From positions 248,001-312,000 of the forward strand of contig NW_026570268.1 of assembly GCF_019649055.1 (NCBI RefSeq): DNA of 64,000 bases, read 5' to 3'. The notes under the pieces were generated by a model. The model ran no database searches. It was not told the origin of the DNA and was given only the letters and a program-made list of their open reading frames with translations. The DNA comes from Paramacrobiotus metropolitanus (Eukaryota > Tardigrada > Eutardigrada > Parachela > Macrobiotidae). This document shows positions 14,309-55,208 of the stretch, in pieces. Each line of letters starts with the position of its first letter. Position 1 is the first letter of the stretch. Made by a program: the position numbers and the translations under genes.

Positions 14309-14545
<237 letters not shown>

Positions 14546-15378: not shown

Positions 15379-15732
<354 letters not shown>

Positions 15733-15952: not shown

Positions 15953-17412
<1,460 letters not shown>

Positions 17413-17413
17413 C

Positions 17414-18443: not shown

Positions 18444-18985
18444 TTCGTTCCAAACTTCGTTCAGCTGCCCAACCAACCAAAACCACCTTTCTCGAAAAAC
18501 AAGTTCATTTTGCCTAGATCATCTAAAATTCCATCCATTCCTGAAGAACATTGTAGATTAATCCCTAGTTCTGCCAACAAACCTGATTGATCAAATGGCG
18601 GAGAGAGGGACTAGTCACTGCAACAAGACTTGCACGATCTTCGAGCAGGAGCCCGGATTGCACGTTCTAACCACAAATACGAACGCACATCCGACAGCGT
18701 CCACACTCCTCGCTCGCACCACTTTAACACAGAAAGAACACTACTTTACCTTATCCGCAAAAATTCGAGCTTCTGTCTGTCCACTGCAGTGACCAAATGA
18801 TGAAAACTGGAATCGCAGAAACACATATACCCGAACCGTAACGTTTGTCAATTTTTGTCTTTGACAAAAAATTTTTGAAAACATGCAACCGTTCACGGAA
18901 TACGGTACAGTAGTGCTTTACCATTAAAAGTGATACAGCAGCGCTGGTTCAATAATGTCGTACCAGCGTAAATAACGATAAATAC
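18444..18985. other. Upstream flank of the Prp8 copy
   Basis: The first readable Prp8 exon begins near 18443 at [10 protein letters not shown]. The true Prp8 N terminus (about 30 residues, with its Met) is not found here. No promoter motif stands out. Confidence 0.5.
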
Positions 18986-18989
18986 AAGA

Positions 18990-20425: not shown

Positions 20426-20681
20426 TGCCCATTCCCGTTGCTGGTGGCCTTGCTGCATTCTTCCGTCAAATACCGGCTGCAACACAAAATCCGCTGCATT
20501 AGTCATATTGAGATATATCTTTTTTCCAATAAATATGAACTAAGTATTAGCAATGTAAATATTTTTCCATTTAAAAAAACATTAATTGTTATTTACTAAA
20601 TACATTAAATATCAATATATTAAGTTTATTAAAACTAACTAATATTATGATAAATTTTCTACAGTTGAATGTTGCGCTTAC

Positions 20682-20797
20682 TTTTTATTGCCACCGCATC
20701 CGCTGCCGACGAAGGTCTGGCAGACACCGGTGGCCGGGTTGAGGTTCCAGCGCGTGATCTCCGCGTGACACACGCCGGTGTCCGTCGCCTGCGAGCA
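20682..20797 (-). CDS. Kunitz/BPTI domain exon (partial)
   Basis: The frame reads CSQATDTGVCHAEITRWNLN, then TGVCQTFVGSGCGGNKK, ending in an AAAAA|GTAAG donor. The Cys spacing, the aromatic before GVC and the GCGGN motif are those of a Kunitz serine-protease-inhibitor domain. The last two cysteines would lie in a following exon to the left that I could not find. Upstream in the same frame a TGA appears, so an acceptor near 20810-20830 is likely. It is either a fragment or one exon of a secreted inhibitor. Confidence 0.65.
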
Positions 20798-20899
20798 GCC
20801 CGGCTGGGGGGTGGAGGTGGGCCCCCGGCTTGGCAGTCACTTGCAGAATGCAGACCTGGACCGTAACTTCCGGCGCCGCACGAGTCGCGGCGGGCGTCG

Positions 20900-21790
20900 T
20901 GGCCGCTGTAAACCAACAGACCCGGTCATTTTTATCATAAAGTAAGGGAATTTCTCAATATACCCATGGTTGCGGCTTTAGTTATGATAGCTTTATTGGT
21001 CAAATCAGTATGCGGTACACAATTATTAGAAAAGACACATAAACTACGGCTTTAGTTGACATAGTCGGCTTCGTCGGCGTTGTTATTGGGAGCACCTGCC
21101 AGTTATTTACAATAATTAGTCAATCTCAGTGTTTAAATATCTATATTTTTATAAATTTAAACATGTTAAACATTAGCGATCAAGGCTATTTATCAAACAT
21201 TAATAAATATGTAGTACACATATTTTAATAAAATTTAATAAATAAAATATGTGTTTTAAAAAATAAAAATGTCCCATTCCGACATTTTGCTAGCAGTGCA
21301 GCGGACAGTGTTCATTTGAAGATTAGGTGAGAACACCAGCCATGCTTTGACAGTTAAACTACAACAACATACAAGTACGTAATATACAAGTCATACGTAT
21401 CTGTACCTGCCGCTGCGGACGCAGGCGGGCAGGTCCACGTTTGGCTTCCGCTTAATTCCGTCCAACTGTTAAAATTCAAGGATTAAGCGTTTGCGCAAGC
21501 ACCACATTTTCTAATGCGGTAAATCCTCACTGCAACTGCCGCTCTCTCTTTCTGCGCCGCGATGTTATTTAGCGTGTACTCGATTATTGGTCGCTTATTG
21601 TTATCGCTGTTACGCGAAATACGCTTTTGTACCTAACAATCGCCTTCTGTGACTCGGCTAAGAATTGTTTAAAAAACTTTTACGCTTAACTCTTTAATCA
21701 AACAGATTCAGTTAAAACGAACAGTTATAAACAACCAATCAGTTTCAGTTAAAGTTTAACCCAACTAAACAATAACACAAGCAAGTCAAG
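20900..21790. other. Intergenic, no gene seen
   Basis: AT-rich sequence between the Kunitz exon and the 3' end of gene A. A small GC-rich block near 21410-21450 followed by a GTACAG donor on the minus strand could be an orphan exon (PNVDLPACVRSGR) but has no support. Confidence 0.4.
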
Positions 21791-21817
21791 CGAGAAACAG
21801 GCTTCGACGGCATCCAG

Positions 21818-24800
21818 TTATTTGCCTTCGGGCTTCTTCTTCGTGAACCGCCCTCTCTGGTCTCGTTCCCGGGGTGCATTCGCCGTCTTCCCTGGCTTCT
21901 CACGCGTCTGCTGGGCGTCCTCCTCCTTCGTTTCCACGACAGTTGCGGGCGTGGGGGACTCTTCGCTTTGCGCCGCTGGCTCACTGTGCTCCGGTGCCTG
22001 CGCGTTCTGCTCCAACCGATCGTGCCAGTGCTCCCGGTCGAGGATGGGCACCCTGCCGCCCATATTCAGTTTGACCATACAATCAGTCGTCCGGCGACAA
22101 CGCCAGAAGTGTTTCCCGTCTTTTCTTGAGAAGTCCCGGAGATATTCGTAACCGTCAAGCCTCAGCACGTCGCCCTTGCGCTGACTGACCGGAGCCACCG
22201 TTTCCCTGCCCGGTTGAACGGCGTGAACGGAGGATACCTAAGGACACGAGCAATGATAACATAAATCGCAATTTACAACCGAAAACAGCAACCTTGATTT
22301 TTCCAAAAATTCACAAAACATGAATATACACACTTTATTCATGTTTTAACACTTGTTTTTCCAAGCATTTACTCCAGAACATTTTTCGAACAATTATACG
22401 TTAATTTCAGTATTCAACAATCAAATTTTACCATTAATTTTTTCCATAATTTTTAGCTTAATTAAGCATTATTAATTCTTCCTTTTCAATTGAGTGCAAA
22501 TATTTATTCAGGCATACGATGCAGCGTTATACGTACGAAACAATTATGTTCAAACATTTGTTTTCAATTTGTTCGCTGAGAATTCGTTTAACCTTTATTT
22601 TTTCTTTCGACTTTCTAAATATTTCAACATTAATGACTGATTGATGCCACTGATTTGCGTAAAGAAACCGCTGATGACCATTACCCACCTCGGCGTCATC
22701 GATCTTCTTCACGCCGCGCGCCTCCATCTTCTTGCGCGAAACTCCCGCATCGCCTTTTCCTCGTTCGCCCAGCTGCAACGGGAAACACGTTAAACGAACG
22801 CTGCACAATGACACAAGCCAGCTGACGCACATAAAATTTCCTCCAATCCAAGAAATGACTTCCCATTTACATATTTTTATCATGTTTCTGAATAAAATTT
22901 TACAGAGGAAAAATTAAGCATTTAAAGTTCAAGAAATTAAAACAATGGTGCAGGAAACGATTAACTAAATTACAAGTAATTTTAAAAACAAATACGCAAA
23001 TCCAGTGCAACAAAAGCATTCAAAGAAAAACGCAATACGAGCATCGAGTTTTTCGAACGTTTTCTACTGGCATGTTTTTAAAAATCTGGTTTCACGTTTA
23101 CTCAAACGGCCGACTGTCTCTGGTCCACCTCGCTTTCATGAATGAACTCATTTAAAAAATTTTATTTTTCGATTTAATGTCTATAAAAACATTATTAATT
23201 TTATTTCTAAATAATATTATAGTATTATATCGCCTGCAGCAACGCACTCGCATTTCACGGCATCGAATCTGACAATAACACAACGCTTACCAGAAGCTCC
23301 TGTTTGGCGGTCTCACACTCTTTGGGGCTGCCGGGGTCAAGCTCCGCGGGGGCTTTGCCGCTGGTCTCCTCGGTTGGCGCAGATTGCTTGCTGTTGGGGA
23401 TGGCGGCGGGGATGCAGTTGTCGCTGCTCGTCTGCCGGTTCAGCGTGGAGAACTCCTCCACAATCTGCTCGCACGGTGCGCTTTTCACCATGAACTCGCC
23501 GACCGTCGCTGAGCCGTTCTCGCAATCGACCTGGCGCTGGGCGGCGGGGGCCGGAGCGTGGTAGGCGCGCGACGTCTCGTTTTCCACCACGTCGCCCAAC
23601 TGGAACGACGCATCCTGCCCATTCTCGCCGATGCCCTCCATGCGCATCATCTCCGCCTCGCAGTTGTTCACCTTCTCCGTCTCGCCCGCCACTGTCACCC
23701 CGCTGGCCTTCTCGTCGTCGCGGCCCGGGAAGTTGATCTTCACCTGGAAGCGGTTATCCAGGTCCGTCAGAGTGCGGCCGTTGTCGTCCATGATGCGGGC
23801 ATGGGTGCGGCTGTCCAGCGGCACCTCCACGCGCGACTTGCGCTTCTACACAACGGACATTAACGCGATTACATTTTACCTCTGTGCAGTCAACCCAGCA
23901 CCTTGCCCTCACCTCGGATTCAGTGCGGGCTTGGCCCTTGTCGCGCGCCGCGGGCGCCTGCGACTCCAGGCCGCTGGTGACGGTCTTGTCGGCGTCCGCG
24001 CTGGCAGCGGCGTCTTGCGGGAACTGTATCTCCACTTGAAACTCGTTGCGCAGCTTGCGGACGTTCCCGCCGTGCTGGCCGCTGATCTGCAAATGGTGCG
24101 TGATGTCCACGCGCACCCCTGCGGGGTAGTTGTGCCCCGCCTGCACATGAAACAAACGCAAATCATTCTCCTGCATCAACACCAGCGCTAACTCCAGCAA
24201 GCATACCCGCTGTTTCTCCAACCTCTCCAGCTCCTTGACGCGCGCCGCCAGCTTTTCGTTGGCTTCATCCACGTTGCGGCGCTGGCCGCCGATCCCGATA
24301 ACGTCGCTCTGATGCGCCGGGTTGGGGATGGCTTCGCGGTCCTCCGGTCGGCCGGTGACGCTGGCCTGTTTGGGCACTTCGGAGGCGGGTCCCACAGTGG
24401 GAGCCAGCTGCTCGCAGTTGGCATCGGCGGCGCGGTTGTCCATGCCCTCGGGGAACTTGATGCCGACGTCGACCTTCTCAGATACGTCCATGACAGGCAC
24501 CTCACCAGGGTGGATGATGTTGGGCTTGGCGACGTCCATCGCATCCTGAGAGCCGAGCAAAACCACTTCCTTCTCCTCGGCCATGCTTACATTGCCAGTC
24601 TCCTGGATTTGCTGGATTTCTTCGGCGCGAGGCGCGGGGGAGCGATGGGGAATATCCACCAAATCGTCCACGGTGTTATGCTGCAAAGACAACCATTAAG
24701 CAGCAATAAGCAACGGTTTTATCATCAAACAGAAAATGACGGGAAACTAAAAATTAAACTAAAATAACGAAACACTAAATTTCAGAAATTTAAAAGGCAT

Positions 24801-27800
24801 CTAAAAAATCATATAGAAGTATGAAACAACTAGAGCAACCAAAGGAATAAGACCGAAAATCGCCCGGCTTTCTTCACGAATTCGACCAAACGTCCCTTCA
24901 CCTCTCGAACACATCCGGCGCAGAGCTTCCGCACTTTCAGGTCCAGCACACGACGGACCTGAAAGACTTGCCAGGCAGGCGCACCGGTGACCACAACCAG
25001 GTCTTTCTCGGGGAAGAACTGGACTTCCACACCGCGACACAGGCGGGCCAGCATAGCCTTCAGCCCATCCGAGTCACTTCCGGCCAGCCAGCTGTGGATG
25101 CTGCCGGGAGCTCGAAGCTGCACGTGAACAACGTGTATAGCCGGAATCTAAAAGTACGCGGCCGATGGTTGACGCATCTCGTAAACACGCATCGTTCCAG
25201 CTCACTGACCTGCTGAGCGAGGAGATCGAGAGCCTCTCCAAATCCGAGAGGATTCCCGTACAGGGTAACCGCATCACTGTCAGGCGACGTCGGTAATTTA
25301 ACCGAAATCCCAGTCTTCTCGTGTACCCGGTGCAGGTACTTTCCGTCCGATCCCCGCAGATCGCGGTGGCAGGCGCGAGAAAGGTGCATCACGATCTCCT
25401 CATTGTCAGTGGGTTGCTGCGCGGAGAAGGGGGACATCTGCTGCGAGACTCGACACTCCAATTGTGGCGATACTGGAGACGTCGTCATCACCTGCGTGGA
25501 CTGGCCGGTGCCACTCGGGATGGTTCTCTTTGAACCGCTGCCATCCCGCAGTTCAATCGTCACGACTCCGTCTGCGTAGGTTAATAAGTAAGTTACTTGT
25601 GACCGAATTGGTGCAAACCAAAGCAACTTTCGCTGTTCCGCACTCCCGTATACAGTATATTTTTTTGCATATACTGTTTTGAAGCCAAAGAAGCCATGTA
25701 CATCTTTATACTGTTTTGAAGCAAAAGAATTTGTATACATAGGTATAAAATCCGTTTGCGAGCGCAACATCCGATTGTAAAGTTATGGTTGAATCAGAAT
25801 TCCAAAAAGTTTAAAAGCATTCAGGCGTGCCAATAGTATAATTATAAACCGACACTTTGCATCCAATTACGATGAATATTTACAAAATGTCAGTAAAGTA
25901 AAAAAGTAAAAGTTACCGAGATACGGCGACGTAAAGTACAAAACTGACATGCAAAGGGGATGCAGCAAAGTAAAATTAAAAAGTAAACGTAAACCAGATA
26001 CTGCTATGTAAAGTACAAAACTGACATGCAAAGGAGATGCAAATAACTTTTAAACCGGATGTTGCGCGCGCAAACGGATTTTATGCCTACGCATGCAGAT
26101 TTTTTGGCTACAAAGTATCATAAAGCAATGCAAAAAATTGTTTGGGAGAGCACGATAACGAAAGTTTCCGTCAATGTACATGAATTTGGTGCTGCGTACT
26201 GGGCCAAATCCCTTAACGCAGTAGGGAAAGTAAAAAGAAATCCAAGAAATAAAAACTTACCAGCTTCTTCCGTCGCGGGACTTTGAGAGGCGGAAGGCGT
26301 TGTCCCAGAGGACCCCGTGATGGGCGACATCAGAGAGCCCTTCCTGAAGAGGTGTTTTTTGAACCGGTTGGCATCCGGGTCTACACAGAACAGGTTCATT
26401 TCCCTTAGCAGTGCCGCAAAACTGTCTTCAGATTCACTGCTCAAAGGTGACGACAGAGACAACGGCTGCACTTGCGCCAGCGGCGGACTGTGCACTGTTT
26501 GCGGCAGTTCACTGTCGCTGGCAGGGGACTCCAAGTGCGGTCCACTGGGTGACTGCCCGCTGACCAGTTGTGCCCCATCGGGTGGCCGCACTGGCGTACT
26601 CATTGGGATGTGGCTGTTCTCCGGATCACAGGGAGTTCTGACGTAAAACAGCATATAAGCCTTCTGCTTCAAAACCGTTCGCTTATCCGCCGGCGACACC
26701 TGCAAAACAATAAACGGTTTTAGAAAAACATTTATTTTTAATCGTCAATTAATCGCTTTAATACCTCTGCATCATTGCAGCAGAACCATGATTTTCCGTC
26801 GATGGTAACATAGGAAAAGTAGTGACCGGAATCCAAAGATGCACCGCGATGCACGAGCACCGCATACAGCTGATATATGACGTCGGAAGCATCATTGGGG
26901 TCACTCATAAACGGGCGCAAATTGAGCCGCTCTGGGAACGCGACAGCCTTATCAACCTTGGATAACGACATCCCGGTATCCAGATATCGCTTGAACAGCA
27001 CCGTCAGGATGTTGGGTGGTACCTGTATCGTGAGCTGCTTGGTTGAGCGAGTCAACTTTCCACACAGTTCGCAATAGTAGAGGTTGTCCGGCGATGTCAA
27101 CTCCTCGCGCTGGGTGTGGATGTGCAGCGCGTCCTCCAGGTGATTGACCGTCTCCCCAATCGCAAGCTGAATGTCCCAGAAGAGCTCCAACGTATCGAAG
27201 GTGTGCTTACACCCCTTGCAATGGACGCTGGACTGAGATACACCGTGGAATATCCAACCCGGCATGGTTGTTTCGACACCATCCACGGTGTCCGGATCTT
27301 GGTGTCCCGACGCTGCAAGCACCATGGCATTCATCACAAAGTGAAGAAATTGGTGTGCGTCATGCTGTCGGCCATCGGAATGCTCTTCCGCAAACACTGT
27401 CGCAATATAAATAACATCAATCACAACAGGAGCAACATCAGTTTTTGTATTTAATAAAAACTGATAAAGAAGCAAAAACAAAACTAAGACTTATTCTTGA
27501 GGAAACACATTTCAGATTTGTAAAGTCGGATAAAAAGAAGTTTCTTACGAGAAAGATTCTCAATGATCACTTTAGGTTCCAGCGCATCCATCGGGGAGGC
27601 GCGCAACACGGACAGTAGCAACTCTTGAAGCTTGCACGTGAGACAAAAGCCCGAGCCTTTGATATGACCTGCAAGCCAGAGTAATATTGCAGAAATATTA
27701 TGCCACACAACTATTGCAGAAAGTTCAAAGCCACCCACAGTGATGATTGTTCTTCACAAAGTAATTATACAATGGCGCTGTATGCGCAAGACATTGCAGT

Positions 27801-28419
27801 GTGGCATTGATAAAGCACGTCGTTTTGCTCGGATTCGTCAGTCCGCAGCCGACGGCCATGTCCGGATGCGGCCACTCCAAATCGATGGCAGGCGGCCACT
27901 CCAAATCATGAAGGCTGCCTTCCATAAGTTTCCCGGTGCTGGGCGTCGGTGATGTAGCCGGACTGGCCGGCGAGGCGGATTGTTCGGAGGAGCGTGCTGC
28001 AGGGTCGTGGGTGTTGGCAGAAGGGGGCACGAACAGCGGCTCACGGACAATCTCCGCCGGCAGCACCACACTGGTCAGCGTCGGCGCACCGGTCCGGATA
28101 TTGAGCTCGCTTGCGGGGGATTTGGGGGGCAGCTTCGTCTTGGTGGGCAATCCCAAGGGCGGCTGAACGACGCCGTCGGGGAGCACCGGGCCACCTGGTG
28201 AAATTACACGCTTATTGAAATCCCTAAAAACCGGCAGCTTTCGCAAATAATAATTTTACTTGTCGGCAGAGGAGCCAGCGTTAATCCCTCGTTGCTCGAC
28301 GGGAGCGTAACGGATAAAGGCGTCCGTACAGGCGAGTTAACCTCGCCAGATGTGCTCCGGACATTCCCCATAGCTGCGGTCTCGGCTGCGGCTTTCTTGC
28401 CGCAATCTTTACTGATCGG
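21818..28419 (-). CDS. Gene A: ubiquitin-specific protease with vigilin-like KH domains and C-terminal FLYWCH finger
   Basis: Exons: 28260-28419, 27739-28194, 27549-27668, 26765-27396, 26261-26699, 25210-25571, 24902-25147, 23913-24680, 23291-23845, 22689-22772, 21818-22237. From ATG 28371 the spliced length is 4,194 nt, an exact multiple of three (1,397 aa), with every junction in phase. The first ~100 residues are Pro/Ser-rich. The USP domain follows: Cys box GLTNPSKTTCFINATLQC, QHDAHQFL, two CxxC pairs, His box SGHYFSYV, WFCCND, AYMLFYVR. All catalytic residues are present, closest to the USP36/42 type. Then come KH-type blocks with GSDG and GQHG loops and vigilin-like FPG/FPQ strands, a basic linker, and FLYWCH (YEYLRD, WRC, C-x5-C, HWH). 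A likely role is deubiquitination directed to RNA or chromatin; that is inference. Confidence 0.85.
25848..26046. repeat. Relic of both satellites inside a gene A intron
   Basis: About 45 bp of the ~120-bp satellite (CACTTTGCATCCAATTACGA and on) run directly into two copies of the 77-bp satellite (GTAAAGTACAAAACTGACAT and GCAAAGGAGATGCA blocks). They sit in the intron between exons 26261-26699 and 25210-25571. Confidence 0.75.
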
Positions 28420-28987
28420 CTAAACGACAGACAAATCGTCAGGCAATTTCCACATGACAAGTCGCTAATATTTTGACAATTTAATTATAGGTAATTTATT
28501 TGCTTAATTAAAAAATAATGTTGTTACAGTTTCATGGCTGGATCAGTTACGGTAGTTGACAGTGTAATCGTAAAGTCATTTATTATCCTCTTTTATTGTA
28601 ATTTTGTGAACTACAAAATTCCGCGAAATTAAATTCCAAAAAATGTAAATTAAGCAACAAAATTATTCACTGATTATTAATTTAAGTACTTAAATAACGC
28701 ATTACAAAATGCTGTAATCCCAAATGAAATTCCACATGAAATTCGAAATTAAGCTCCAAATTAAATTCCAGCTAAATCTCAGATTAAATTACAAATTAAA
28801 ATACAAAAAAATTCCAAATCAAATCCCGAATTAAATTCAAATAAATTCCGAATTAAATCCCAGTAAAATCTCAAAATAAATTACAAATTAAATTACAAAA
28901 CAAATTCCAAATCAAATCTCGAATTAAATCCCCAATTACGTATATGACTCAAACGGCTTGTAATAAACATAAAGTCCCAGCCTGCAC
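28420..28987. other. AT-rich degenerate repeat between gene A and Mondo exons
   Basis: From 28725 to 28937 the sequence is a ragged run of AATTAAATTCCAAAT-like words of 10-20 bp, a decayed minisatellite. No bHLH-zipper exon of Mondo is found here. If the two genes are spliced together this is an intron, since the phases agree. Confidence 0.6.
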
Positions 28988-31900
28988 TTCCGGTACGACA
29001 ACCGCTTTGCTACTGGGCACAATGGGGTTCAATGGGCGGACCTGCGCACTGGTACTTCTGGTCTGCATGCCCGTCGGCGCCGCGCAGCCCGGCTGCACCA
29101 CACTGCCGCTGCTGGCCGAGATGGACCGGCCGAAGGTGTCCGGCGCCGCCGCCAGAACATTCGGCTGGATCAACGGGTCCCCGCCGGGCGTCGGGCTCAA
29201 TGTCGAGCTGTGCTGGATGTCCTCCCCACGCAGCGCCAACTCCGACAGATCGCTCGGCTGGTACAGCTGGACTGGGCGGAAGGTGTCTGGGGACAGCATG
29301 GCGTCCAGAGTGTCGCCGCTGTGCTGCGTCGTCGTCGGGGGCGGCGGGGCGTATGGCGGCGAGTCAGACATGTAGACGCTGGAGGCACCGGCCGCGGACT
29401 GAGTGCGGTAGCTGTTGGTGGTGGACCGATCAAAAGCCGGGGAGCTGAGGGGCAGCGCCAGCGAATGCTGTAAAAAAATCACGCGGACTAACCAAAACAA
29501 ACTAACAATAATTCAGAAAATTAATCTATTAATAACTACCCACGCCTAACAATAAGAATTAAATTAATCATAGTGTCACGTAATGATTTTTATATAGATA
29601 ATTGAGCGACAGCTCTGATTCACTTTTATGATTTTGCTACTGTTTACTGATTCATTTGAGCGATATGCTCACTCGTGCTATCTGATATTATTCTTTCCTA
29701 CTTGTTTGCCTACAAATACTGCTGTTCTTTACTTCTAATGCACGGATGCATGCATTCAGTACCACTTCCGACAGTACACTTTGTACTTCTACCTGATTTC
29801 TTTCCTAATAACAATTCCCTGCCTCGCATTGCCTTTCTGTTACCGTTAATGCATATTATCATATGTTAGCATACCGGCCGGTTTAGCCGTGCCGTGACCT
29901 TTAATTACTTTGCTCTGCCATAAATTATGTAACAAACTGGTCCGACGACTGAGAAGTACCTGTCGGTTACTTCAGCTGTCAGTTATTATTATTTTATTTT
30001 TTGTTTGTTTTTCTTAATGTACGATGACTTAATACGACGATACCATCACCGTTCACAGCGGCTGCCGCTGCCACTGCCGTTTGTACTACGCCGCATTCGA
30101 GCAGCGTGATTTTCCAGACGCTAGCAAGCCATAACCGGGAACTGATGTTCTCGCGCGCTTTCCGATTTTGTCGTTCGTTCGCAATACCAGGCTAGCATGT
30201 TCCGTCGTGAGTATACTTGACAACTGCCTTTTTAAAAAATTTAATGGCGATAATCCTAGTGCAGTACTTCTGATAACTTTGTTCTTATGTAAATGCTCGA
30301 GTTGTAAACAAAAGTGTCTCTTGAAAACGACTATATGGCGTGTGATATTGGTGCATCATCTGCTGATTCAGTTCTTAGAGATCTGCCTTCATAAAAATAA
30401 TTTGCACTGCGCTTTTAATTATCTCATAAAATTTCCGCCGAACTGTGCAGAGTTGAAAAATTGCAGTTTAAAAATGTTTCTTTTGTTTTCGAATTACCGG
30501 ATATTTCTCGATATGCCTGACCGTATTGTTTTTCATTTCAAGAACACTGTTCACTGATTGCGTCTTGAAACAAGAAAGATCATTCGTGTAACTGTTTTCT
30601 AATTTCGCTTTGCTGTTTCATGGTAAAAAAAAAGTTTTTACATTTCGAATATTCCCATGAAGGTTGATTGGATTAAATTTACGTCGATGCCGCATCAGTG
30701 CTTCCGAAAAGCGATAGCTCGATATTACAACAATCTTTACTTGACAGCATGTGTCGGTTACGATATTTCTGTTGGACAATCGAACTATCAGTTCTCTGCT
30801 TATGAAATTTAATAATTCGTTAGCAAGATGAATAGTTCGTTTCTGATGTTTTTGGTGACCTTTGTTTTCGAAAAAAAATATACTTCACTTTTGTTGTTTA
30901 GCGATTTGTGCCTTGATCTTATCCTGTCTTGACTCGTTGAGTCAGTAGATGTTTGCATGCCGGGGCTATGCCCTATTCACAATCTGGAACTGCCGAACCC
31001 AATTACACTTTTTCTCGTTGTTGGAAAATTTCAGAGATTTCTGGGCTTGTTTACTGATTAGCGATTGGATAAGAATATTCTTCGTTGACTAATACCGTTT
31101 CTTGTGACCAATCCCTAACCGAACCTAGTTCAACGTTCCTGGCCGTTCCTAAAATAACTTCGAATCTATCTGATTAATCAGACTTGCCGAACCTTATTAC
31201 TCAACGCTTTTCTTGGTTGTTAAATCTGCAGCTTTACTGAAATGAATCCGCCCAAAAGAACTGGTAATTACCCTCCTACTGTCCAGTCAAGAGAAGCAGA
31301 TCAAAGCTTGGTTGAGTCATTTCTGTTGGCCATGAAATCATCAGAAAAGCTTTGTACACGTCGGCATTCAGTTGCAGTCATGGACCACGAACTCCTCAAG
31401 GACTTAGTTCCATGTAGCCCGGTTGTCGATGTACTAGGACCCGTTACAGTTATTAAAACTCCGGTTTTGTTATCAATGGTTGCCAAAGTTAACAAATTTT
31501 TGAATGAGTACAGTTCTCTTTTAAATCAGCTTAATGCGCCGTCCAAGCCCAAACGTAAACGCGAAAGCCGTGCTTGTAACTACTGCCACAAGGTTGGTCA
31601 CCTTTATTCCGTATGTTATTTAAACCCAAATAGCCGTAATTACAGGCCTGTTGAAAAGGGTAAACGTAACACTACTAACGTTGGTGGTGCACGACGTCAA
31701 CAGTCTGCAAGCGGTGAGCATTCGGCCACGCAAGCCAGATCACCGTCCCGTTCGGCAAGTGCACCGGGACAGCCACGCTGATATTAATGAGGCTGTTGTA
31801 TATATGCTTGTATATATGCCAAGTTGTATTGAATTATTTACGAAACACTAAAAAAAATGTTTATGAGACTTTTCCGTTTCCAAATATCACTGTCCTGCCT

Positions 31901-34900
31901 TAATACTGCATGTGCATATGCGTTTAGTGCATCGTTTTGTAGGAATGTTATGACCGTCTAAAATGTAGTAAAAAAATAACCGTTTTGTTTTAGCTCTTTA
32001 ACTTTGTAACCTTTTATCCACTTTTAATCACTTATCATTTGATTTCCTAAAATGTTTGGCTCAAATCATTGACGGATCCGACCTAACGTACAACTGGTTT
32101 TTAAACTTACTGTATGAAGTTTTTTGTCAAAGAGGGGAAGGGATAAAAGCGACGTACTAGATTCTGCAATAATTATCTATCCAGGAAGAAGCACATCGGC
32201 GAATGAATTATCTGAAGCAATGCACGTGTGCTTTTTATGTTTTTGAAAATTTATTTCGAGGAAATATGTTTTTGATATTTTATTTTGGTTTAATGCACGT
32301 GTTTCTTTTTGTGTTTTTGGAATTTTTATTGTTGAACTGGCCAGAGAATAAATGACTCCGCAAAGCGACGGCACTGGATAGACACAACTAGTAGGTCAAG
32401 GTGACAGATTGGACGAACGTTGTGCCCAATGTACATACTTTATTCGCATAGCTGAAAACTACCAGAGTGCGAGTCTGGATTAACGTTTTTTATTATGCAA
32501 CAAAATTAATCACTGTGAACTCTAGAACTGCAGACTAGAATTTGCTTTGATTTAAATTAAATATTAATTAAAAGCTTCAAACCGTTGCGCTGTGGGTGCC
32601 GTATAGCTGTGAATAATCAGGTGCATACATGGTTAACGAAAAGGTTGACTTAGTGTTTGAAAAGAAAGTGCACGTTCTTTTTAAAACTTTAGTATCACCT
32701 AAGGGAAGAACTGCAGACTCGTCCGGAGAGCGTAGTGACCCAGCCGGTAAAATAATGAATTGTTGCATTTAATCAAAGGCAAAAGCCTCGGAGTCAAGTT
32801 AATGTTCGTTTAGTTGAAAAGAGTATACTCAGACCGGCGAAGCTATACCATGGACCGCAGTAAAAGTTGGCAGAATCTTAATGAATCCCCTGTGTAGTGA
32901 TAAAGTGCGAGTAGCGTCTACGCATAATGGTTTAATTTGGAATTTTGACAGCCCGAAACTTAAGAGTTTTCATAAACTCAGATTGGTTTATGTAAGGTTG
33001 AAAGAGCCAAAAAAAAGAGGATTCTAATCTTGGAACTCAATGAGTAATGCGTTTTTGATTGTCCGATATTCCTGATAATTGCGTGTTTGGAAAACTATAT
33101 TTTATTGCTTTTATTTGTACTCTTTCGAATGGGTATTTCTTTTCCAGGATGGTATTTGTATGTGTTCGTTAAGTGTTTTCTGCAGCATTGGTGTTCCGCG
33201 AAACGCGATGTTTTTGAAAAGCCTCCGAAATTCCTGCAGCCCGCCCGCAGACCTGAACCCTCATAGGCCCGTTATTATAAGACGATATAAAATTATACGC
33301 TCAAGACAAAAGCGTTAGCAAATGAAGTTGTGCAAAAATGACCCTTGTTGGAAATTTAAAAAAAAAAAAAAAAAATTTTAAAAAAAATTTACATGATCAT
33401 AACGGCGGATTGTGCCAGATGTATTTATTTTCTCGCAACTTGCTGAACTGAGTTTCGTTTCCCTTCAAAATGGCTCTTTGTAAATTTTAGGACTGCGCAG
33501 ACTGAGATTTACATTGATTCCAAACAAAAATAAGTTTATTTCAAACTTTTCATTTATGACTGAATATATTTCGTCATGGAAAATTTATTGCGAATCATAA
33601 CAGCTATCAAAATATTGCTGAAAGTGTAACGCTCCACCTGCCTTTGTGAAAATCATACAAAAGGCCGTAAAAATGAGAACGGCATTCGTTTAACGGAAAC
33701 AGAGTTGAGCTGTGAATTCGTCTTTTTAGTTAGCGCTTGTAAGTGTCATTCCAGGCAAATGCGTTCTGTGTGCAGCCTCCTTTGGGCCTGCACCACCTTG
33801 TAATCCACAAGCCTGATGTAAGCCGACCGGCTCAATTAGGCTTGGATCAACGCACTATTTTCTGCGCGGACACACCCGTGAACTCCCTCCAGCTGACCGA
33901 ATCGTTTCTCGCGTTGGACCGATTATCAACAACTGTGGTTGGACAGATACCGTTTGGATTCCACACGTGTTCCCCGACCTGTTCGTCTCTTTACGTCGTT
34001 TCCGTACTGCTATGGACGCTGGCCCCTTTGATAACGGAGGACCATTAACCAACAGCTCAGTATAATCGCTTAGCATTAGCCTTGTTTTACCGCTCATGTA
34101 AAGTCAGCCAGCAAATAAATTAAAATTTAAAAAATATTACCCTAAAAGTTCAAAAATATTCTATTTCATTTTGATTGTTCGTCTATTTTGCGTAATTAAT
34201 TGTTTGTTTATTTTGTTTTTTAATTAAATTTAAGTCAGGTTCTTGCATTATATATAGGTAGGTTTAAAATCGTCTGGATTATTGTACTAAATCTTCCCAA
34301 TATAAAAAAAAAATCGCTTTATTCTTGAAGAAAAAATTATGAAATAACACTGGTTTGGAAATTTTCTTCGCCACTTGTGTGATTTTAATTCGAATTTTAA
34401 AAAAAGTATCTAGGAGATAAACCCGGTTCTATCCTCGAAAACCCAGCGACATCGGGCTCGCTAACTGAAGCTTTAGGTCGCCGCATTTTATCAATCATTA
34501 CAGCCTTGAAGAGGTGACCGAGTGCTCATATCGATTGCCCTGCATTACAACCATGGTTAGAGCATAGTATTTTTGTATATAGATGGAAGTCAAACTTTTC
34601 TGAGGCAAAATTTAATTTTGAAATTAAAATAATTTACGAATATTCTGGTGCAGCTGTTTGTTTGCAGTGTCTACGCGAATCAAAATCGCTCACAGGCCTC
34701 ACGATTAACCCACTCCAGTCTAGAATCGATGTACAAAAACCTGTCTGAAACAGCAATACCATCTGCTGTGAAGTCTCTGCAAAAAAAAAAAAAACTTGTC
34801 TGCAACAGCATAAAATTGGCTGTAATGTCTCTGACCAAAACCTGTCAGCAACAGCACTGAAAATTGCTGTGAAAAAAAGAACAGAACAGAATTCCGTAAA

Positions 34901-37676
34901 GGATCGTACACGCGCGACTCGATCGCAGAAGACGCAAAATTACCAGTCAGACACGAGTTTAGCATCGTAGACTGAATGCACTGAAGTTGCATTAAAAAAG
35001 GGGAAAAGAGGCGTGTGTTTAGACAAGCGAACGAACAATGTTTAAAACCAGTGACTTAATATCTATAAATTAGATTTTTGGTATCGATTTAGCCTCAGAA
35101 AATGAGATGTCTATTTATTTGCTTGAATACGGTGTTCTGTTGTGGTTTTGGTGTATGGTTGACCGCGGATCAAAGTTCAAGTTCAAGTGCGACCGAATGA
35201 CATCATCGTTAGCACCGCATTTATTATAAAAATGAGTCAGGGAATCTAAATCCAAAAACATTTATAAAATGAAAATTTGATTTAACCCGGGTTTTCCCTA
35301 AAAGCGTTACGAAAATAAATTATTCCGCTGTATTACCTATATTTCTTATAACCGTATCAATTATAAATATTATTTGCATAATAATACCCGTTGTTTCTTG
35401 GATGTGTTTTGAAAATTTCTAAACGCAAAAATAGCTGCTTTATCGTATTGCTGGTTGACTGGCTTTTCTGCTTTTCTTGTCTAGTTATGGACTGCGGACA
35501 GTCCTTTTCACACGGAGAGAAGTGTCACGTAATGATTTTTATATAGATAATTGAGCGACAGCTCTGATTCACTTTTATGATTTTGCTACTGTTTACTGAT
35601 TCATTTGAGCGATATGCTCACTCGTGCTATCTGATATTATTCTTTCCTACTTGTTTGCCTACAAATACTGCTGTTCTTTACTTCTAATGCACGGATGCAT
35701 GCATTCAGTACCACTTCCGACAGTACACTTTGTACTTCTACCTGATTTCTTTCCTAATAACAATTCCCTGCCTCGCATTGCCTTTCTGTTACCGTTAATG
35801 CATATTATCATATGTTAGCATACCGGCCGGTTTAGCCGTGCCGTGACCTTTAATTACTTTGCTCTGCCATAAATTATGTAACAATAGGTCAACAATAATT
35901 ATATCAATAATAGTAAATTCCTATATAAGAATAAATTATTGGTAAAAGATTAAACTATGAATAAAACAACAGCGATTAATAAATGAATAAGGAAAAAATT
36001 AAAATTAATATAAATGATTAAGAATGACTAAGGATGCCGATCTGACCTTCCGGTAAGCATCGGAGTCGCCGGAATAATCCAGAGATATGAACTCCTGCGA
36101 ACTGTCCATCCCGACCTGTCCCGTGGAGCTGCAGCCGGACGAAGCCTCATTTTTCCGCGTAAAATACTCTGCAACACAGTAAAGGCGCTGCGCACACCGA
36201 GTATTACTCAACGCCGAGTGCTGAATACCGGTGCACATCTCCAGTGTGGCCTTAATGTCATCCAACAACGACAGCAGCGGCAGTAGTCCCGCTGGGATAA
36301 TTTCCGCGCACCCGGCATGGTCTGCACCAAATGATGCTAATCATACACAAAAATATAACAATAAAGGCGAAATAGCGGATACCGATTTCGCGGGGATCGG
36401 GGAAGGCGGAGTGTTGCGGACCGAGGCGGGGCAGCAGGGCGTCGGTCAAGTCCGGCAGGGGGACGTCGTCCAGCACGATGGACTCCTCGAAACACGGCTG
36501 CATCACCATGCTCCCGCTGTGCGGATCGCTCACCGCCTGAACAATTGCAACATACAGTATCATCAAAACAGCCAAATTGTGGTTATTAATACGGCACAGC
36601 ATTCTTATTAATTCATTATTATTATTACGACGGCGTACACTGGCGGCCATGCTGTCGCTGCGGGTGCGGACGCCGGAGATGCGGTCCTTGTACCACAGCC
36701 GCCAGCGGCGGTACTCGGAGACGATGGACAGCCGACGCTTCCAGTACTTGCCCGCCACCAGCTGCACCGAGTTGTCCACTTCGTTCGATGCGTTCACCGG
36801 CCGCACAGGCTCGATAACTGCACAAACATCTTCCGAATAACACAAGACACAGTAATTATTTTTCGCATTTTAATGACGTACGTAATTTTTTTTAATGAAT
36901 AAATTCATTACAGTTATTCAGCCTGCATTCTAAAATTTCTGTTATTTTTTTTCTACACAGGCATAAATCAAATTAATGTTTTACGATTCCAGCCGTTATT
37001 ATGCGCACTTGTGTACATTCCATTAAATTAAAAATTAATATTAGAAATTCCTGGAACTGCCACAACGAATTCGTTTGTGATATCTGATGGTGGCGATCTT
37101 AAAAATTATCCTTAAGAAAATTTAAAATTAAATTAATACCGTAGCCAATTAAATTAATGCAGTAGCCAAGCGAATCAACTTACAGTCCATGTGCCAGGCC
37201 CGCCGAATGACGTTACTCAGGCGGATCTTTTGAGCTGAGCTGAGTCCCTTGAAATTATTCCATGTGGGAGACGTCAATTTCGCCCTAAATCATTGCCAGC
37301 TAAATTCCCCTGACAGAGTAAGAGGAAATGCAAATGCCGCCACCCACTTGTTGGCCAGCGTCATGCTCTGGAACAGCTTGCGAAGCGACGAGTCGACGAA
37401 CAACCCCTGCTGTGGCGCAGTATCCAGCAGCATCCCGTCGTGCGTCACGGAGTTGCTGCGTTCGCGCGGCCGATGGGTTTGCTGGGGCGCTCGGGTGGCG
37501 GGGCGGGAGGGGCGCGTCTGGACGGCCATCGGGGGAGCGTGCGCCGGCGCCCGCATGGCCGGGCGCGTGCGGACATGCTGGAACGCCGTGGCGCCACTGA
37601 GCAGATCCTCCGAGCTCGTCGTCAACACGTCACTCGCATTATCGCAGTCCTGGTCCTGTGAAACGTTGCTCATCAT
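28988..37676 (-). CDS. MLXIP: Mondo/MLXIP (ChREBP family) N-terminal exons
   Basis: Exons: 37348-37676, 37184-37284, 36639-36817, 36383-36536, 36229-36321, 36047-36168, 28988-29467; junction phases all agree. The first exon ends DSSLRKLFQSMTLAN, the second reads LTSPTWNNFKGL then KIRLSNVIRRAWHM, and the third GKYWKRRLSIVSEYRRW then WYKDRI. These are the Mondo conserved regions that control nuclear export and glucose response (SLTKLFECMTLAY, WKNFKGL, KIRLNNAIWRAW, YWKRRIEVVMREYHKWR). The 36383 exon is acidic (LDDVPLPDLTDALLPRL); the 28988 exon is Ser/Pro-rich as in the transactivation region. The bHLH-zipper and C-terminal domain that bind Mlx and DNA are not in the window. A CAG acceptor precedes MMSNVSQ, so more 5' sequence may exist. 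Confidence 0.8.
29574..29934 (+). repeat. 5' LTR
   Basis: Starts TG and ends CA, with a TATATAG box about 20 bp in. A 64-codon frame inside it is shared with the 3' LTR and is not evidence of a gene. Confidence 0.9.
31242..31781 (+). CDS. Gag-like protein with one CCHC zinc knuckle
   Basis: The 179-aa frame ends in a basic region with a retroviral-type zinc knuckle, C112-x2-C115-x4-H120-x4-C125 (CNYCHKVGHLYSVC), followed by a Ser/Arg/Gln-rich tail. The part before it (~110 aa) has no recognisable capsid fold and is much shorter than a full gag. The knuckle would bind element RNA. The ORF starts about 1.3 kb downstream of the 5' LTR, which leaves a long leader. Confidence 0.75.
   Translation: MNPPKRTGNYPPTVQSREADQSLVESFLLAMKSSEKLCTRRHSVAVMDHELLKDLVPCSPVVDVLGPVTVIKTPVLLSMVAKVNKFLNEYSSLLNQLNAPSKPKRKRESRACNYCHKVGHLYSVCYLNPNSRNYRPVEKGKRNTTNVGGARRQQSASGEHSATQARSPSRSASAPGQPR
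35523..35883 (+). repeat. 3' LTR
   Basis: I find no difference from the 5' LTR over its 361 bp. The purine run GGAGAGAAG ends immediately before it and ATAG follows. Confidence 0.9.
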
Positions 37677-47912: not shown

Positions 47913-50900
47913 CTACTTGTCCTTCTTCGCAAATCGCCCCTTTTTATCTCGGGCATAGTCCCTCTTGGCCGCCTTCTTCGGCTCGTCCCGTGTCCGCTGC
48001 TCGTTCTCCTCCGTCTCCACCACGGTGACGGGCGCCGGGGACTCCTCCGTGTGCGCCGTAGGCTCCAGGCGCTGCTGCTGCTGGTCATCTGGCACCACGG
48101 GATCGTGATTGTGGGGACGGTACAGGTTAGGCACCCCGGTGCTCATGTCCAGCCGGGCCACACAGAGACGCTCCTTACGACAATGCCACTTATTGTCTTT
48201 CCCGGAGTCCCGCAAATATTCGTACCTTCGTAGCGTTAGAATATCGCCTCCGCGCTGAGCTTTCGGAGGCACCGCTTCCTTGCCCGGTTGAACGGGGCGA
48301 AGGGAAGTTACCTACGGATACGAGCAATGGTAACATAAATTGCAATTTACAACCGAAAACAGCAACCTAGATTTTTTCAAAAATTATAAAACATGAATAT
48401 ACACACTTTATTCATGTTTTAACACTTGTTTTAACATTTTCGAACAATTATACGTTAATTTCAATATTCACCAATCAAATTTTACCATTAATTTTTTCCA
48501 TAATTTTAAGCTTTATTAAGCATTCATTTTCAATTTTGTGTAAATATCTATTCAGGCATACGAGGCAGCGTTGTACGTACGAAAAATTTATTTTAAAACA
48601 TTTCCTTTCAATTTGTTCACCGAACATTCGTTTAACCTTTATTTTCTTCGTTCTGTGTTTCGACTTTCTACATATTTCAACACTAATGTGAACATGCCAT
48701 TGATTTTCTTGAAAGTTGTTGAAACCGGCCGATGACTATTACCCACCTTTGCATCAGTCTTCTTCACCACGCCGCGTGTCTGCATCTTCTTGCGCGACAC
48801 TCGCGCATCTCCTTTTCCTCGTTCGCCCAGCTGCAACGGGTAACACGTTAAGCGAACGCTGTTCAATGACACAAGCCAGCGGACGCACATAAAATTCCCT
48901 CCATTCCAAGAAATGACTTCGCATTTACATATTTTTATCATGTTTCTCAATAAAATTTTACAGAGGAAGAATTAAACATTTAAAGTTCAAGAAATTAAAA
49001 CAATGGTGCAGGAAACGATTAACTAAATTACAAGTAATTTTAAAAACAAATACGCAAATCCAGTGCAACAAAAGCATTCAAAGAAAAACGCAATACGAGC
49101 ATCGAGTTTTTCGAACGTTTTCTACTGGCATGTTTTTAAAAATCTGGTTTCACGTTTACTCAAACGGCCGACTGTCTCTGGTCCACCTCGCTTTCATGAA
49201 TGAACTCATTTAAAAAATTTTAGTTTTCGATTTAATGTCTATAAAAACATTAATGTTATTTCTAAATAATAGTAAATTATTATATCGCCTGCAGCGACGC
49301 ACTCGCATTGCACGGCATCGAATCTGACAACGACACAACGCTTACCAGGAGCGCCTGTTTGGCCATCTCGCACTCTTCCGGGCTGCCGGGGACAACTTCC
49401 GCGGGGGCTTTGCCGCTGGTCTTCTGGGTGGGCGCCAACGTCTCGCCGCTGGTGTGGGCGGCGGATGCGTCGGGGATAGAGTTGCCGCGCTTCATCGTGG
49501 GAAATACCTTTAGGTTTCGCTCGCAGGGCGCGCCCTTCACCACGAACTCACCGGCCGTGGCTGAGCCGTTCTCGCGGGCTATCTGGCGCTGGGCGGCGGG
49601 GGCCGGGGCGTGGTAGGCGCGGAATGTCTCGTGCGCCACCACGTCGCCCAACTGGATGCGGCTGTCCAGCGGCACCTCCACGCGCGACTTGCGCTTCTAC
49701 ACAACGGACATCAACGCGATTACAATCTACCTCTGTGCAGTCAACCCAGCACCTTGCCCTCACCTCGGATTCAGTGCGGGCTTGGCCCTTGTCGCGCGCC
49801 GCGGGCGCCTGCGACTCCAGGCCGCTGGTGACGGTCTTGTCGGCGTCCGCGCTGGCAGCGGCGTCTTGCGGGAACTGTATCTCCACTTGAAACTCGTTGC
49901 GCAGCTTGCGGATGTTCCCGCCGTGCTGGCCGCTGATCTGCAAATGGTGCGTGATGTCCACGCGCACCCCTGCGGGGTAGTTGTGCCCCGCCTGCACATG
50001 AAACAAACGCAAATCATTCTCCTGCATCAACACCAGCGCTAACTCCAGCAAGCATACCCGCTGTTTCTCCAACCTCTCCAGCTCCTTGACGCGCGCCGCC
50101 AGCTTTTCGTTGGCTTCATCCACATTGCGGCGCTGGCCGCCGATCCCAATGACATCGCTCTGATGCGCCGGGCTGGGGATGGCTTCGCGGTCCTCCGGGC
50201 GGCCGGCGACGCTGATGGCCGCTTTGGTCACTTCGACGGCGGTTTCCACGATGGGAGCAGGCTGCTCGCCGTTGGCATCGGCGGCGGGGTTGTCTTTCCG
50301 CTCGGGGGTCTTGATGTGGACGTCCAACACACCCATGACTTCGTCCAAATGCAACGACACCGGACCACTCCCGCAGACGCCCTCGCGTTGCGTCTCGTTT
50401 CCGGCTGGGATCGCAGCGACTCGGACACCAGTCACACCATCTATCAAAACAAGAAACAACGTTAATTTCCAAGAAGAAAAAGAAATCGCATCGGAAGTAG
50501 AGGGCCAACGCGCAGTGCAGGCTATTAACAAATTTCAGCAACCGTTACCTAAATTACGATACTGAAAACCAGTCGTCGTAATACCGCTGGCGCGAATGAC
50601 TGCACAGTGAACCGCATACCGCTTGCTTTGTCTTTCTCCACCCACACCATTCCCGTACTGGAAGTCACAGACGAGTTGATGCTGCCCGACGAATTTCGCT
50701 CGCGTTTGTCAGGCTCACTGTCCGGACAACCTACGGCCGGCACCACCTGATCGTCCATCGTCCGCTTTACAAACTCCCGCAGGAGTCGCTCCATCTCCTC
50801 CACGCGCTGCAGGACCTCCTTGGTCACGGACACGCCCTCCACTTCCAGTCGCAGAGCCGCCAAAACTCTTTTTGCGACACTAGTCGCACTGGATGGTGAA

Positions 50901-52777
50901 GGGGAGCTGATGGTGGAGGACTTCGGTGGAAGCTGCTCCGCACGCGCCACCGGCGGGCTGTACACTTTTGGCCGCAGCGTCGTAGTCTCCTTGGCCGGAG
51001 TGACGCCCTTCGCGGATACCGGGGTTTCTTTGGTGCTCTCGGAGGACGTGGTTGACGCGGAACTCTTACCGGACGCCGGAAGAGGTGTCGGAGTAACGTC
51101 CTCGTCGTCTTCCGTGTACGGAACGAGAGATTTGCCGGATTGGGACGGTTGTGGGAGTTTCTGTGGCGGTGGAGACGAATCAAACGTTAACACACGCGGC
51201 GTTAACAGTGGAGTCCCGCACTGCGCGGAACTCCGAGCGATGGTGGAAGGTGATGGGGAGAGGGAAGGTGCATCACTGGTGTTTCCTTTGAGATTAGTAC
51301 TGGCGGACGCGGGATCATCGGCGCTGGAAAAGGCCAGTTCCTCGCTGGCCAATTCCTCGCAGGCCAATTCACCGCTGGGACAGTTTTCCAACTGCGGTCC
51401 GGTGGGAGATTTCTGCGACTCGATGACCGGTAGCAGCCCACCCGACGCACGCACCAACGTACTCAGCTGCTGGCTGTTGATCGGTGGATCATTAGGCATG
51501 CGCATATAAAACAATAAATACGCCTCCGCACTGAATACCTCTTGCTTATCCGCACGGCTGACCTGCAAAACCAAAAATTGTTCTTAAAAATAACGAGTTT
51601 TTGATATCGTCGCTTTATACCTGACAGTCATTCATGCAAAACCATTGTGACCCACTGGGATTAACATAAGAAAAATAATGCCCGACTTCCATACAATTCC
51701 CGCTGTGCACCACTATTGCATACAGATTGTATAGTGCAGCCACATTATCGTTAACGGTTAACGTCATTCATAAAGGGCCGCAGATTCAACTGCTCCGGGA
51801 ACCCGACAAACTTAGCGATCTTTCCGGTTTTGCGGAACCGCTTCAGGTGGATGGTGAGGACGTTTGGCGGCCGTTGGATCGTCAACTGTTTGGTGGAAGG
51901 CGTCACCTTGTTGTTACACGGTTCGCAATTGTAGTCGTTCAGTCGCTCAGTGCGTGTGCGGGTGTGCAGAGCCTCCGCTGCGTCGCTGACGGTCTCAATA
52001 GCCAGCTGTACAATCCTAAAGGGTTCGAATGAATAGGAACGCTGCCGACACATTTGGCACTGCGTGCACGAACGATAACAACCACCAAAAATCTTGTCAA
52101 AGATGGTGATATCCGGACTAGCATTGATGAGATAGCCGAGAAATTCCTCAGCATCCTGCTGCACTCCAGGTATCAGGCTTTCATGGATTTCTGAAATCGG
52201 GCATCGAGTTTGTTAATCAGTTAAAATAACGATGAACAACATCGACTTGCGTACTTCATAAAAATTAATTAAAATCGTAAACACAAAACAAAAGCTAATT
52301 ATTAAGCAAACACATTTCAGTTGGGAAAAATCAGATTAGCAGTAATTTTCTTACTGTCAAGGTCACGCCTGATCCCCTGAGGGTCCAAAACTTTGTTCCG
52401 GTTGTGACGCATGGACGGCAAGATCTCCTGCAGTTCACACAACACGCAGAATCCGTGCAACCAGTCTGCAAGTCAGAATAATATTGCAGAGAATTATTGT
52501 ACAGCAAAACTATGGCAGAAATTCCAGGTTACTAACACTTCTGTTTATGGTCGCCCGTGACGAAATAATTATACAGGGGTGCGGTGTATGCGAGGCACTG
52601 GAGCGTCGCATTGAGATAACAGGTATTTGTCCCCTGGTTCAGCAGTCCACATCCCACTGGCAGATCTGGCCGCAGCCACTCCCGTTTGAGATCAGCTGCC
52701 GGGTGACTAATCACCATCGGTCCAGGAAGACTTTCTTCCAGCTTGGGCTTGGCGTTGCTCGACAGCGGGGAGGAATG
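47913..52777 (-). pseudogene. Gene B: frameshifted paralogue of the USP-KH-FLYWCH gene
   Basis: Exons: 52537-52777, 52355-52465, 51621-52190, 50563-51562, 49764-50440, 49346-49694, 48747-48830, 47913-48311, in the order of gene A. USP parts: Cys box GLLNQGTNTCYLNATLQC, QQDAEEFL, CxxC pairs, LTIHLKRF, His box MEVGHYFSYV, AYLLFYMR. A 200-aa Ser/Pro linker, KH-type block (GQHG), and FLYWCH (YEYLRD, WHC, C-x5-C, HNH) follow. Two lesions break the frame: a 7-bp insertion at 51750-51761 and a 2-bp loss in a GC run at 49680-49684. Undoing both in the length count restores agreement of every exon phase. Relative to gene A a KH block of 67 codons is cleanly missing. ATG 52717 may be the start. Confidence 0.75.
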
Positions 52778-53771
52778 TTAGGAGGAGAACGCAGGGTTCT
52801 GTGCGGACGGGACAGCCGCTACGGCGGGTGCGGTTAGTGGCTGCATATCGCCCTCACAGTCATCCAGGCAGTCGGCGGCGGTCAGGACATGCTTGGCGGG
52901 GATCTCGGCCGTGTAGCTGGACGATTCGCGGTCGGGGGCGATCTTCTCCAGCAGCGGCAGGGCCTTCCCAGCATCGGGCATGAGGCTGGCCGACAGATCT
53001 TTCACCGGCGCAACTTGACCACATCTTGCGCTTAGCCCCCGGGCCTCGTCTTCAAATATTTGCCGGACGAAGATCACGTCAAACACAGGCCAACCCGCGA
53101 CCATGATGAGGTCTTTCTCCGGCAGAAATGTCACTTTCACATCACGGCACACGGACTCCATCACCGATTTCAGCTCGCCGGGTATCATATGCTTAATTCG
53201 GCCAGGAGATTTCAGCTCCACCTCAACTTTCGTAGTGTCTGCTACCTAAAGGAACGCACACCAACGATGACGCATCTCATAAACACCCAACGCCGCACCA
53301 CACTGACCTGACCCAGCAGGAGCAACTGAAGCGCCTCTACAAATCTGGAGGGGTTGCCCCGCAAGCGGACTTCATCACTGTCAGCATCAGACAGATGCAC
53401 CGTGACCCCGGTCGGATTTAATGTCCACGGCAGGCGGTTCTCGTTGAAACCCTTTAAGGCGTTATGCTGGATGCGAGGAACACGCAGAATGATTTCTTCG
53501 GTAACCTACACGGACATCTGCTAGTTAATCCACCTAATTATAACTAGCTAATGTCGAGCGCAGCACCACGGAAGTCTTACCAGATCGTCGTCCGCCTCTT
53601 CGTGCAGTACTTCTACGGGACCGGCGATCTGGGCGGCGCTGCTGGAATCGCCAGCGGCCGGGTGCGGGGAGACGGGCGACGTCACTTCCTGTGTGGGCTG
53701 GCTCGCGGCAATCGGGATCCGTGGCGTCTGTTTTACGCCACTGCCATCGCGGAGCACGATGGTGATGACAC
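52778..53771 (-). CDS. KH-domain exons upstream of gene B
   Basis: Exons 53581-53771 (VITIVLRDGSGVKQTP), 53308-53505 (KH-like, EEIILRVPRIQHNALKG to DEVRLRGNPSRFVEALQLL) and 52778-53245 (KVEVELKSPGRIKHM, FLPEKDLIMVAG). They match gene A exons 25210-25571 and 24902-25147 in order and phase, yet lie 5' of the USP exons, whereas in gene A they lie 3'. The last exon runs to TAA 52778-52780, and the sequence beyond continues in the same frame straight into the gene B Cys box. So they are either a separate gene end or the first half of gene B cut by one stop. Confidence 0.65.
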
Positions 53772-53846
53772 CTGCATATTAAAGCTCCCTTGTACGTGCC
53801 TGCTCCGAATAAATAACACAAGGAAAAATAAAAACTTACCATCAGA

Positions 53847-55207: not shown

Positions 55208-55208
55208 C

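Follow-up and report, generated by a model that had tools for sequence, protein, structure and literature searches.

The gene model at the locus

The window, a stretch of 64,000 nucleotides of the tardigrade Paramacrobiotus metropolitanus (assembly GCF_019649055.1, contig NW_026570268.1, positions 248,001 to 312,000), carries on its minus strand a frame of 19 exons that extends from 37676 to 21818 and encodes 1,877 amino acids with no internal stop codon. Coordinates without a prefix are those of the window, and C48 designates its contig. The downstream part of this frame had been described in an earlier note as a gene of eleven exons joining a USP deubiquitinase domain, vigilin-like KH units and a FLYWCH finger, in these blocks:

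28419-28260, 28194-27739, 27668-27549, 27396-26765, 26699-26261, 25571-25210, minus strand: blocks 1 to 6
25147-24902, 24680-23913, 23845-23291, 22772-22689, 22237-21818, minus strand: blocks 7 to 11

The model was rebuilt by translating the minus strand of 18000-30600 and searching all donor choices between the acceptors given. The eleven blocks were recovered with all introns GT-AG and all phases agreeing; with the ATG at 28371 as start and the TAA at 21818-21820 as stop, their length is exactly 4,194 nt (4,242 nt when counted from the acceptor at 28420). Two details of the earlier description do not stand. Position 28419 is the start of an internal exon (acceptor TTTAG/CCG) and not the 5' end of the gene, since seven upstream Mondo-type exons (37676 to 28988) join the model in phase. 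In addition, block 8 holds a 66-nt intron (24206-24141; CGG/GTATGC...CATGTGCAG/GCG) at a position that matches an intron of the tardigrade's own vigilin gene; it had been read as coding because it is in frame and without stops, and the protein first proposed probably includes 22 intron-coded residues. The complete frame of this copy, hereafter copy 1, is as follows:

37348..37676, minus strand, exon M1: Mondo-derived N terminus with putative start MMSNVSQ; 57% over 113 aa against the Mondo source gene (tblastn)
37184..37284, minus strand, exon M2: Mondo conserved region III (SPTWNNF, RLSNVIRRAW), with invariant N changed to S and W to R
36639..36817, minus strand, exon M3: Mondo conserved region IV (KYWKRR...EYRRWRLWYKDR)
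36383..36536, minus strand, exon M4: Mondo-derived
36229..36321, minus strand, exon M5: Mondo-derived
36047..36168, minus strand, exon M6: Mondo-derived
28988..29467, minus strand, exon M7: Mondo-derived, Pro/Ser-rich, 56% to the Mondo source gene; joins the exon at 28419 in phase 0
28260..28419, minus strand, exon M8: Mondo-derived, 63% to the Mondo source gene; block 1 of the earlier model, whose protein began only at ATG 28371
27739..28194, minus strand, exon M9U1: Mondo/USP fusion within one exon, followed by the Cys box of the USP, GLTNPSKTTCF
27549..27668, minus strand, exon U2: thumb of the USP domain with the second zinc site (H..C / CLTC)
26765..27396, minus strand, exon U3: USP fingers and palm, with the finger CxxC pairs, catalytic His and Asn-Asp
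26261..26699, minus strand, exon U4: end of the USP domain and a Ser/Pro-rich linker
25210..25571, minus strand, exon K1: a segment for which no source was found and a vigilin-type KH with GSDG loop; 30/61 identical to the tardigrade's own vigilin KH
24902..25147, minus strand, exon K2: vigilin-type KH, GKGG changed to GSDS; 23/68 identical to vigilin
24207..24680, minus strand, exon K3a: what is left of three KH units of vigilin, lacking GxxG parts
23913..24140, minus strand, exon K3b: best-kept KH, loop GQHG; 43/73 identical to vigilin
23291..23845, minus strand, exon K4: last vigilin KH, its GGKG now DDNG, and the C-terminal tail of vigilin, where a vigilin splice donor takes the place of the stop codon
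22689..22772, minus strand, exon X10: basic linker
21818..22237, minus strand, exon F11: FLYWCH finger followed by a basic tail, with the sole stop codon of the frame; 53% to the FLYWCH gene at C154

A Pfam search of the spliced protein returned the three families named earlier: UCH (PF00443) at 2.7e-50 with positions 1-254 of 254 matched, KH_1 at 3.4e-18 in three stretches, and FLYWCH at 9.8e-5, its 22.9 bits lying just under the cut-off of 23.6, whereas the FLYWCH exon alone reached 29.8 bits in a genome scan with PF04500. The architecture is wider than USP, KH and FLYWCH, because the N-terminal third is Mondo-derived. Searches of the genome found no source for the segment DSFAALLREMNLF...DGVVTIELRDGSG between USP and KH.

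Copies of the gene and the repeats around them

Three further family members were found by genome search on the contig of copy 1:

47916..53778, minus strand, copy 2: KH-KH-USP-KH-FLYWCH, with KH exons before the USP and a frameshifted USP exon
C48:423.4-414.7 kb, copy 3: second full copy, 140 kb from copy 1
C48:397.7-395.6 kb, copy 4: a fragment

Copy 3 comprises 17 exons and at least 1,687 amino acids (its 5' end is uncertain) with no internal stop, and it repeats the exon chain and splice sites of copy 1, with the DNA of the second half diverged by about 14%. This bears on whether the gene could be an artefact of assembly or gene modelling in which unrelated exons were chained by chance. 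Over the 11-block span there are 756 stop-free combinations of donor choices, eight of which give 4,194 nt from the exon edge, so that phase agreement alone is weak evidence and chance chaining has that much in its favor; support for the exon chain of copy 1 comes instead from its paralogues and source genes. With the same chain retained at this divergence, and with many exon borders of copy 1 agreeing with those of the source genes, an artefact is strongly disfavored.

Repeats surround the family, and one mobile element is found within copy 1:

29572..35884, plus strand, LTR retrotransposon in intron M6-M7 of copy 1, with two 364-bp LTRs that are 100% identical

This element, whose gag-like ORF (31224-31781) contains a CCHC knuckle and which was not found at the equivalent site in copy 3 (the site is empty there), is evidently young. 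A 77-bp minisatellite forms long arrays near the family (40885-45145; C48:397.7-403.2k) and recurs in copies 1 and 3 within the intron between USP and KH (25892-26041), where it may promote rearrangements. A second minisatellite of about 123 bp lies at 19004-20372 and 13501-13977, as well as near the end of copy 4 and that of a flanking duplicated block. The block itself (13842-18886) is duplicated with copy 3 at C48:425.1-431.9k, inverted relative to the chimera. Just 3' of copy 1 is a Kunitz-like Cys-rich ORF (20681-20836) that is repeated 3' of copy 4 (C48:394457-394612), and an ORF upstream of copy 2 (region 47916-56375) may resemble the GTPase EFL1. Between copies 1 and 3 the exons diverge more than the introns (7.7% versus 4.0%; 6.1% versus 3.4% for non-CpG), the reverse of the usual relation, for which CpG mutability accounts only in part.

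Source genes and junctions

CAHS queries gave 16 matches in the genome at up to 67% identity, and no SL1 sequence was found in it, which identifies a tardigrade and rejects the nematode origin that short introns and FLYWCH would suggest. Homologue searches covered the 170-Mb genome assembly and identified collinear source genes elsewhere in the genome for each named part: a Mondo gene, a USP36-like USP, vigilin and a FLYWCH gene. The protein of copy 1 aligns collinearly with Mondo over residues 1-601, with the USP over 593-1162, with vigilin over 1146-1711 and with the FLYWCH gene over 1745-1877. Stand-alone relatives are present at C33 for the USP, at C119 for vigilin and at several loci for FLYWCH, the nearest at C154. 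Vigilin-like KH matches also occur at C177:139.6-140.2k, C41:1069-1071k, C9:376-425k and C238:35.8k; at C177 a basic helix-turn-helix-like ORF comes after two such units, and the locus may be a further chimera.

A weak match at C48:754 kb lies in an intact bHLH gene, and the exons upstream in that gene correspond to those 5' of the eleven-block model. This intact gene (C48:751-756k; HLH 1.1e-13, nearest solved chains Max and Myc) carries Mondo conserved regions and a DCD-like C terminus, and queries for bHLH and DCD match it only, with no match in the chimera loci examined. The Mondo regions match a segment of human ChREBP at E 3e-26; the human reference segments used for the Mondo and DCD comparisons are approximate queries. 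The name Mondo is assigned on the basis of these segments and of the invariant residues listed in PMC3323566, namely P104, W106, F109, R121, L122, N123, N124, W127 and R128 in human ChREBP numbering. The tardigrade Mondo gene keeps nine of nine (SPKWNNF, RLNNVIWRAW) and the chimera seven, N123 being Ser and W127 Arg in copies 1 and 3. Parallels with the Mondo proteins (MondoA/ChREBP, MML-1) extend exon by exon through the N-terminal conserved regions II-IV, PDPREI and the Pro/Ser-rich region; the chimera differs from them in these two residues and in having neither bHLHZ nor the C-terminal DCD.

The best solved match of the USP part is USP36 (and USP42), at E 2.8e-59 over the whole domain, with which it shares the thumb and finger zinc motifs, the catalytic His and the Asn-Asp, and it is 53% identical to the USP36-like source gene at C33; in the chimera, however, the Mondo half stands in front of the domain, and KH and FLYWCH parts take the place of a USP36-type C terminus. 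The vigilin pieces of copy 1 come from two separate places of vigilin (HDLBP), with internal stretches lost in frame; they are collinear with and 45-67% identical to tardigrade vigilin, including intron positions and the C-terminal tail. That tail has no vigilin stop, ending in a stretch that matches an earlier vigilin exon with its splice donor. The finger shares its ligands and aromatic core with FLYWCH proteins and has a basic tail as in the C154 gene (53%), differing from them in being the last exon of a large chimeric protein.

The junctions are in frame. That between Mondo and USP falls within a single exon in copies 1 and 3, and that between USP and vigilin within a single exon of copy 2 (50440-50058), where a USP tail precedes vigilin KH in one open frame; its USP part was recognized by a DNA-level match to C33 (tblastn, neighboring frame) together with the shared motif AAIPAGNE. 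The USP-to-KH link of copies 1 and 3 crosses an intron (689 and 975 nt) and for that reason is inferred, and the KH-FLYWCH link likewise crosses introns. An alternative is that the block consists of two or three adjacent genes (Mondo-USP, KH, FLYWCH) that were duplicated jointly. The shared order of parts in the copies is not independent evidence against this, because the entire block was duplicated, and several introns contain polyadenylation-like hexamers, while the LTR element parts the Mondo exons in copy 1. Against it, the frame has a single stop codon; the stop codons of the upstream source genes, that of vigilin included, are absent, as is the USP C terminus; an in-frame ATG is missing from exon K1 of copy 3 and, ahead of the finger, from F11 of copies 1 and 3; and a single exon of copy 2 holds both USP and vigilin sequence. 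Separate genes are therefore considered unlikely, and a single gene spanning all parts is likely, with odds well in its favor. From the sequence we infer that a single transcript encodes a single protein of about 1,880 aa.

The sources are the N-terminal half of a Mondo of ChREBP/MondoA type without its bHLHZ, a USP36-like catalytic domain, non-contiguous vigilin pieces and a FLYWCH-finger C terminus. The assembled chimera then underwent duplication within its contig, which still carries two full copies with open frames.

Constraint, changed residues and proposed role

Between copies 1 and 3 the overall dN/dS is 0.57 (bootstrap 0.49-0.69), so the frames have been under purifying selection. The USP core has the lowest value of the five parts, 0.39 (0.27-0.59), followed by K1-K2 at 0.53, K3a-K4 at 0.57 and X10-F11 at 0.60; constraint on the Mondo part (0.71) is unproven by itself because its 95% interval reaches 1.25. 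The FLYWCH part diverges fast (dN 0.43). All indels in exons are whole codons, compared with 4 of 12 in frame in introns, and no stop mutation is seen where about 15 would be expected under a neutral model from the observed substitutions. Sequence exchange between the copies blurs these estimates of selection, and the tests are somewhat favorable in that exon borders were picked with open frames in mind, most splice sites being also fixed by conservation with the source genes. Judged by the open copy 3, the in-frame indels, the absence of expected stops and the dN/dS of 0.57, the chimera is coding and constrained, and the constraint over the whole frame, together with its recurrence in a second complete copy, upholds the reality of the combination of USP, KH and FLYWCH that the earlier note proposed.

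These same data weigh on the proposal that the family is a decaying, unexpressed mosaic of segmental duplications. Decay is visible in the frameshifted USP exon of copy 2 and the fragmentary copy 4, the borrowed domains lack signature residues, and the family is set among minisatellites and a young LTR element; yet frames of 1,877 and 1,687 codons are open, dN/dS is well below 1, exon indels are only in frame and the expected stops are missing, all of which makes a pseudogene distinctly improbable.

What the protein does depends on how the residues of its borrowed domains are read. The USP part keeps the triad, both zinc sites (the motif of the second thumb site being taken from PMC10611586) and the Gln/Asp box, and its catalytic residues align with those of USP36 (TTCF, SGHYFSYV, CCND), so that the Cys, His and Asp noted earlier are indeed present, Asn-Asp included. 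The USP oxyanion Asn is extremely conserved and positioned to stabilize the oxyanion (PMC10867860). Its spacing to the catalytic Cys is 6 in copies 1, 2 and 3 (NPSKTTC in copy 1, NQGTNTC in copy 2, NPSNTTC in copy 3), one residue more than the 5 found in USP36 and in all 11 other USP Cys boxes read in the genome (ten and the C33 source gene).

For the KH part, the seven corresponding units of vigilin have the loops GPRG, GKGG, none, GPKG, GKAG, GQRG and GGKG, and in the chimera these are GSDG, GSDS, none, deleted, deleted, GQHG and DDNG. Six GxxG loops in the vigilin segments are thereby reduced to two: the GxxG part is deleted in two units, one is without a loop in the source as well, two are degenerate (GSDS, DDNG), one is acidic (GSDG) and one is intact (GQHG), most of the seven units or remnants thus being without an intact loop, in contrast to vigilin. 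The two GxxG loops reported earlier do fit the pattern, although GSDG is acidic, and acidic loop residues have been used deliberately to abolish RNA binding in KH domains (PMC6486635). The FLYWCH zinc ligands (C..C..HxH) are complete in copy 1, as had been stated. Structure prediction from two-row alignments gave uninformative mean pLDDT values of 41 for exons 24680-23913 and 53 for F11.

The main alternative is the function originally suggested, in which the deubiquitinase is active and its own KH and FLYWCH domains carry it to chromatin or RNA-protein complexes. The close relation to USP36, the retained triad, zinc sites and GQHG loop and the complete FLYWCH ligands of copy 1 all speak for it, and the preserved catalytic and structural residues in a USP core with the lowest dN/dS fit continued catalysis. 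A lengthened oxyanion loop is no proof of lost activity, and an active enzyme keeps a fair though smaller probability. The extra residue in this loop nevertheless sets copies 1-3 apart from the other USPs read in this genome, and with KH loops mostly deleted or acidic, delivery of a deubiquitinase to RNA-protein complexes by its own KH domains is not borne out; overall this alternative appears doubtful.

The explanation we favor, at a probability of roughly 0.6, is that of a tardigrade-lineage chimeric gene built in frame from four host genes, for which we prefer a role mainly as a scaffold or decoy. A binding role is preferred because purifying selection acts on frames with changed active residues. 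Little or no ubiquitin cleavage and little KH-RNA binding would be expected, since residues for those functions have been lost. The USP36-like fold might bind ubiquitin or ubiquitylated partners, the Mondo half might meet the partners of Mondo, and the FLYWCH finger and basic tail might hold the protein to DNA or chromatin. That the protein is mainly a nuclear scaffold or decoy with parts binding ubiquitin, Mondo partners and chromatin falls a little short of an even chance in our estimation. The fuller proposition, of a four-source family with all parts open and constrained, key Mondo, USP and KH residues lost, and a decoy function linking ubiquitin, Mondo partners and chromatin, is more tentative. 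In copy 1 the fresh LTR element separates the Mondo exons from the remainder of the gene, which counts against the favored explanation.

No join of USP, KH and FLYWCH and no tardigrade chimera was found in the open-access literature searched. The lineage-specific family is a new combination of known parts, and it presents the birth of a new gene in an animal with most of its steps still readable, as one assembly contains the four source genes and the junctions along with two copies that are intact, one that is broken and one reduced to a fragment. It also serves as a warning that a function suggested by a list of domains, here USP, KH and FLYWCH, may find no support in the residues. If expressed, the chimera would be a lineage-specific protein in which glucose sensing, ubiquitin and chromatin meet, in tardigrades, animals that are studied for their stress tolerance.
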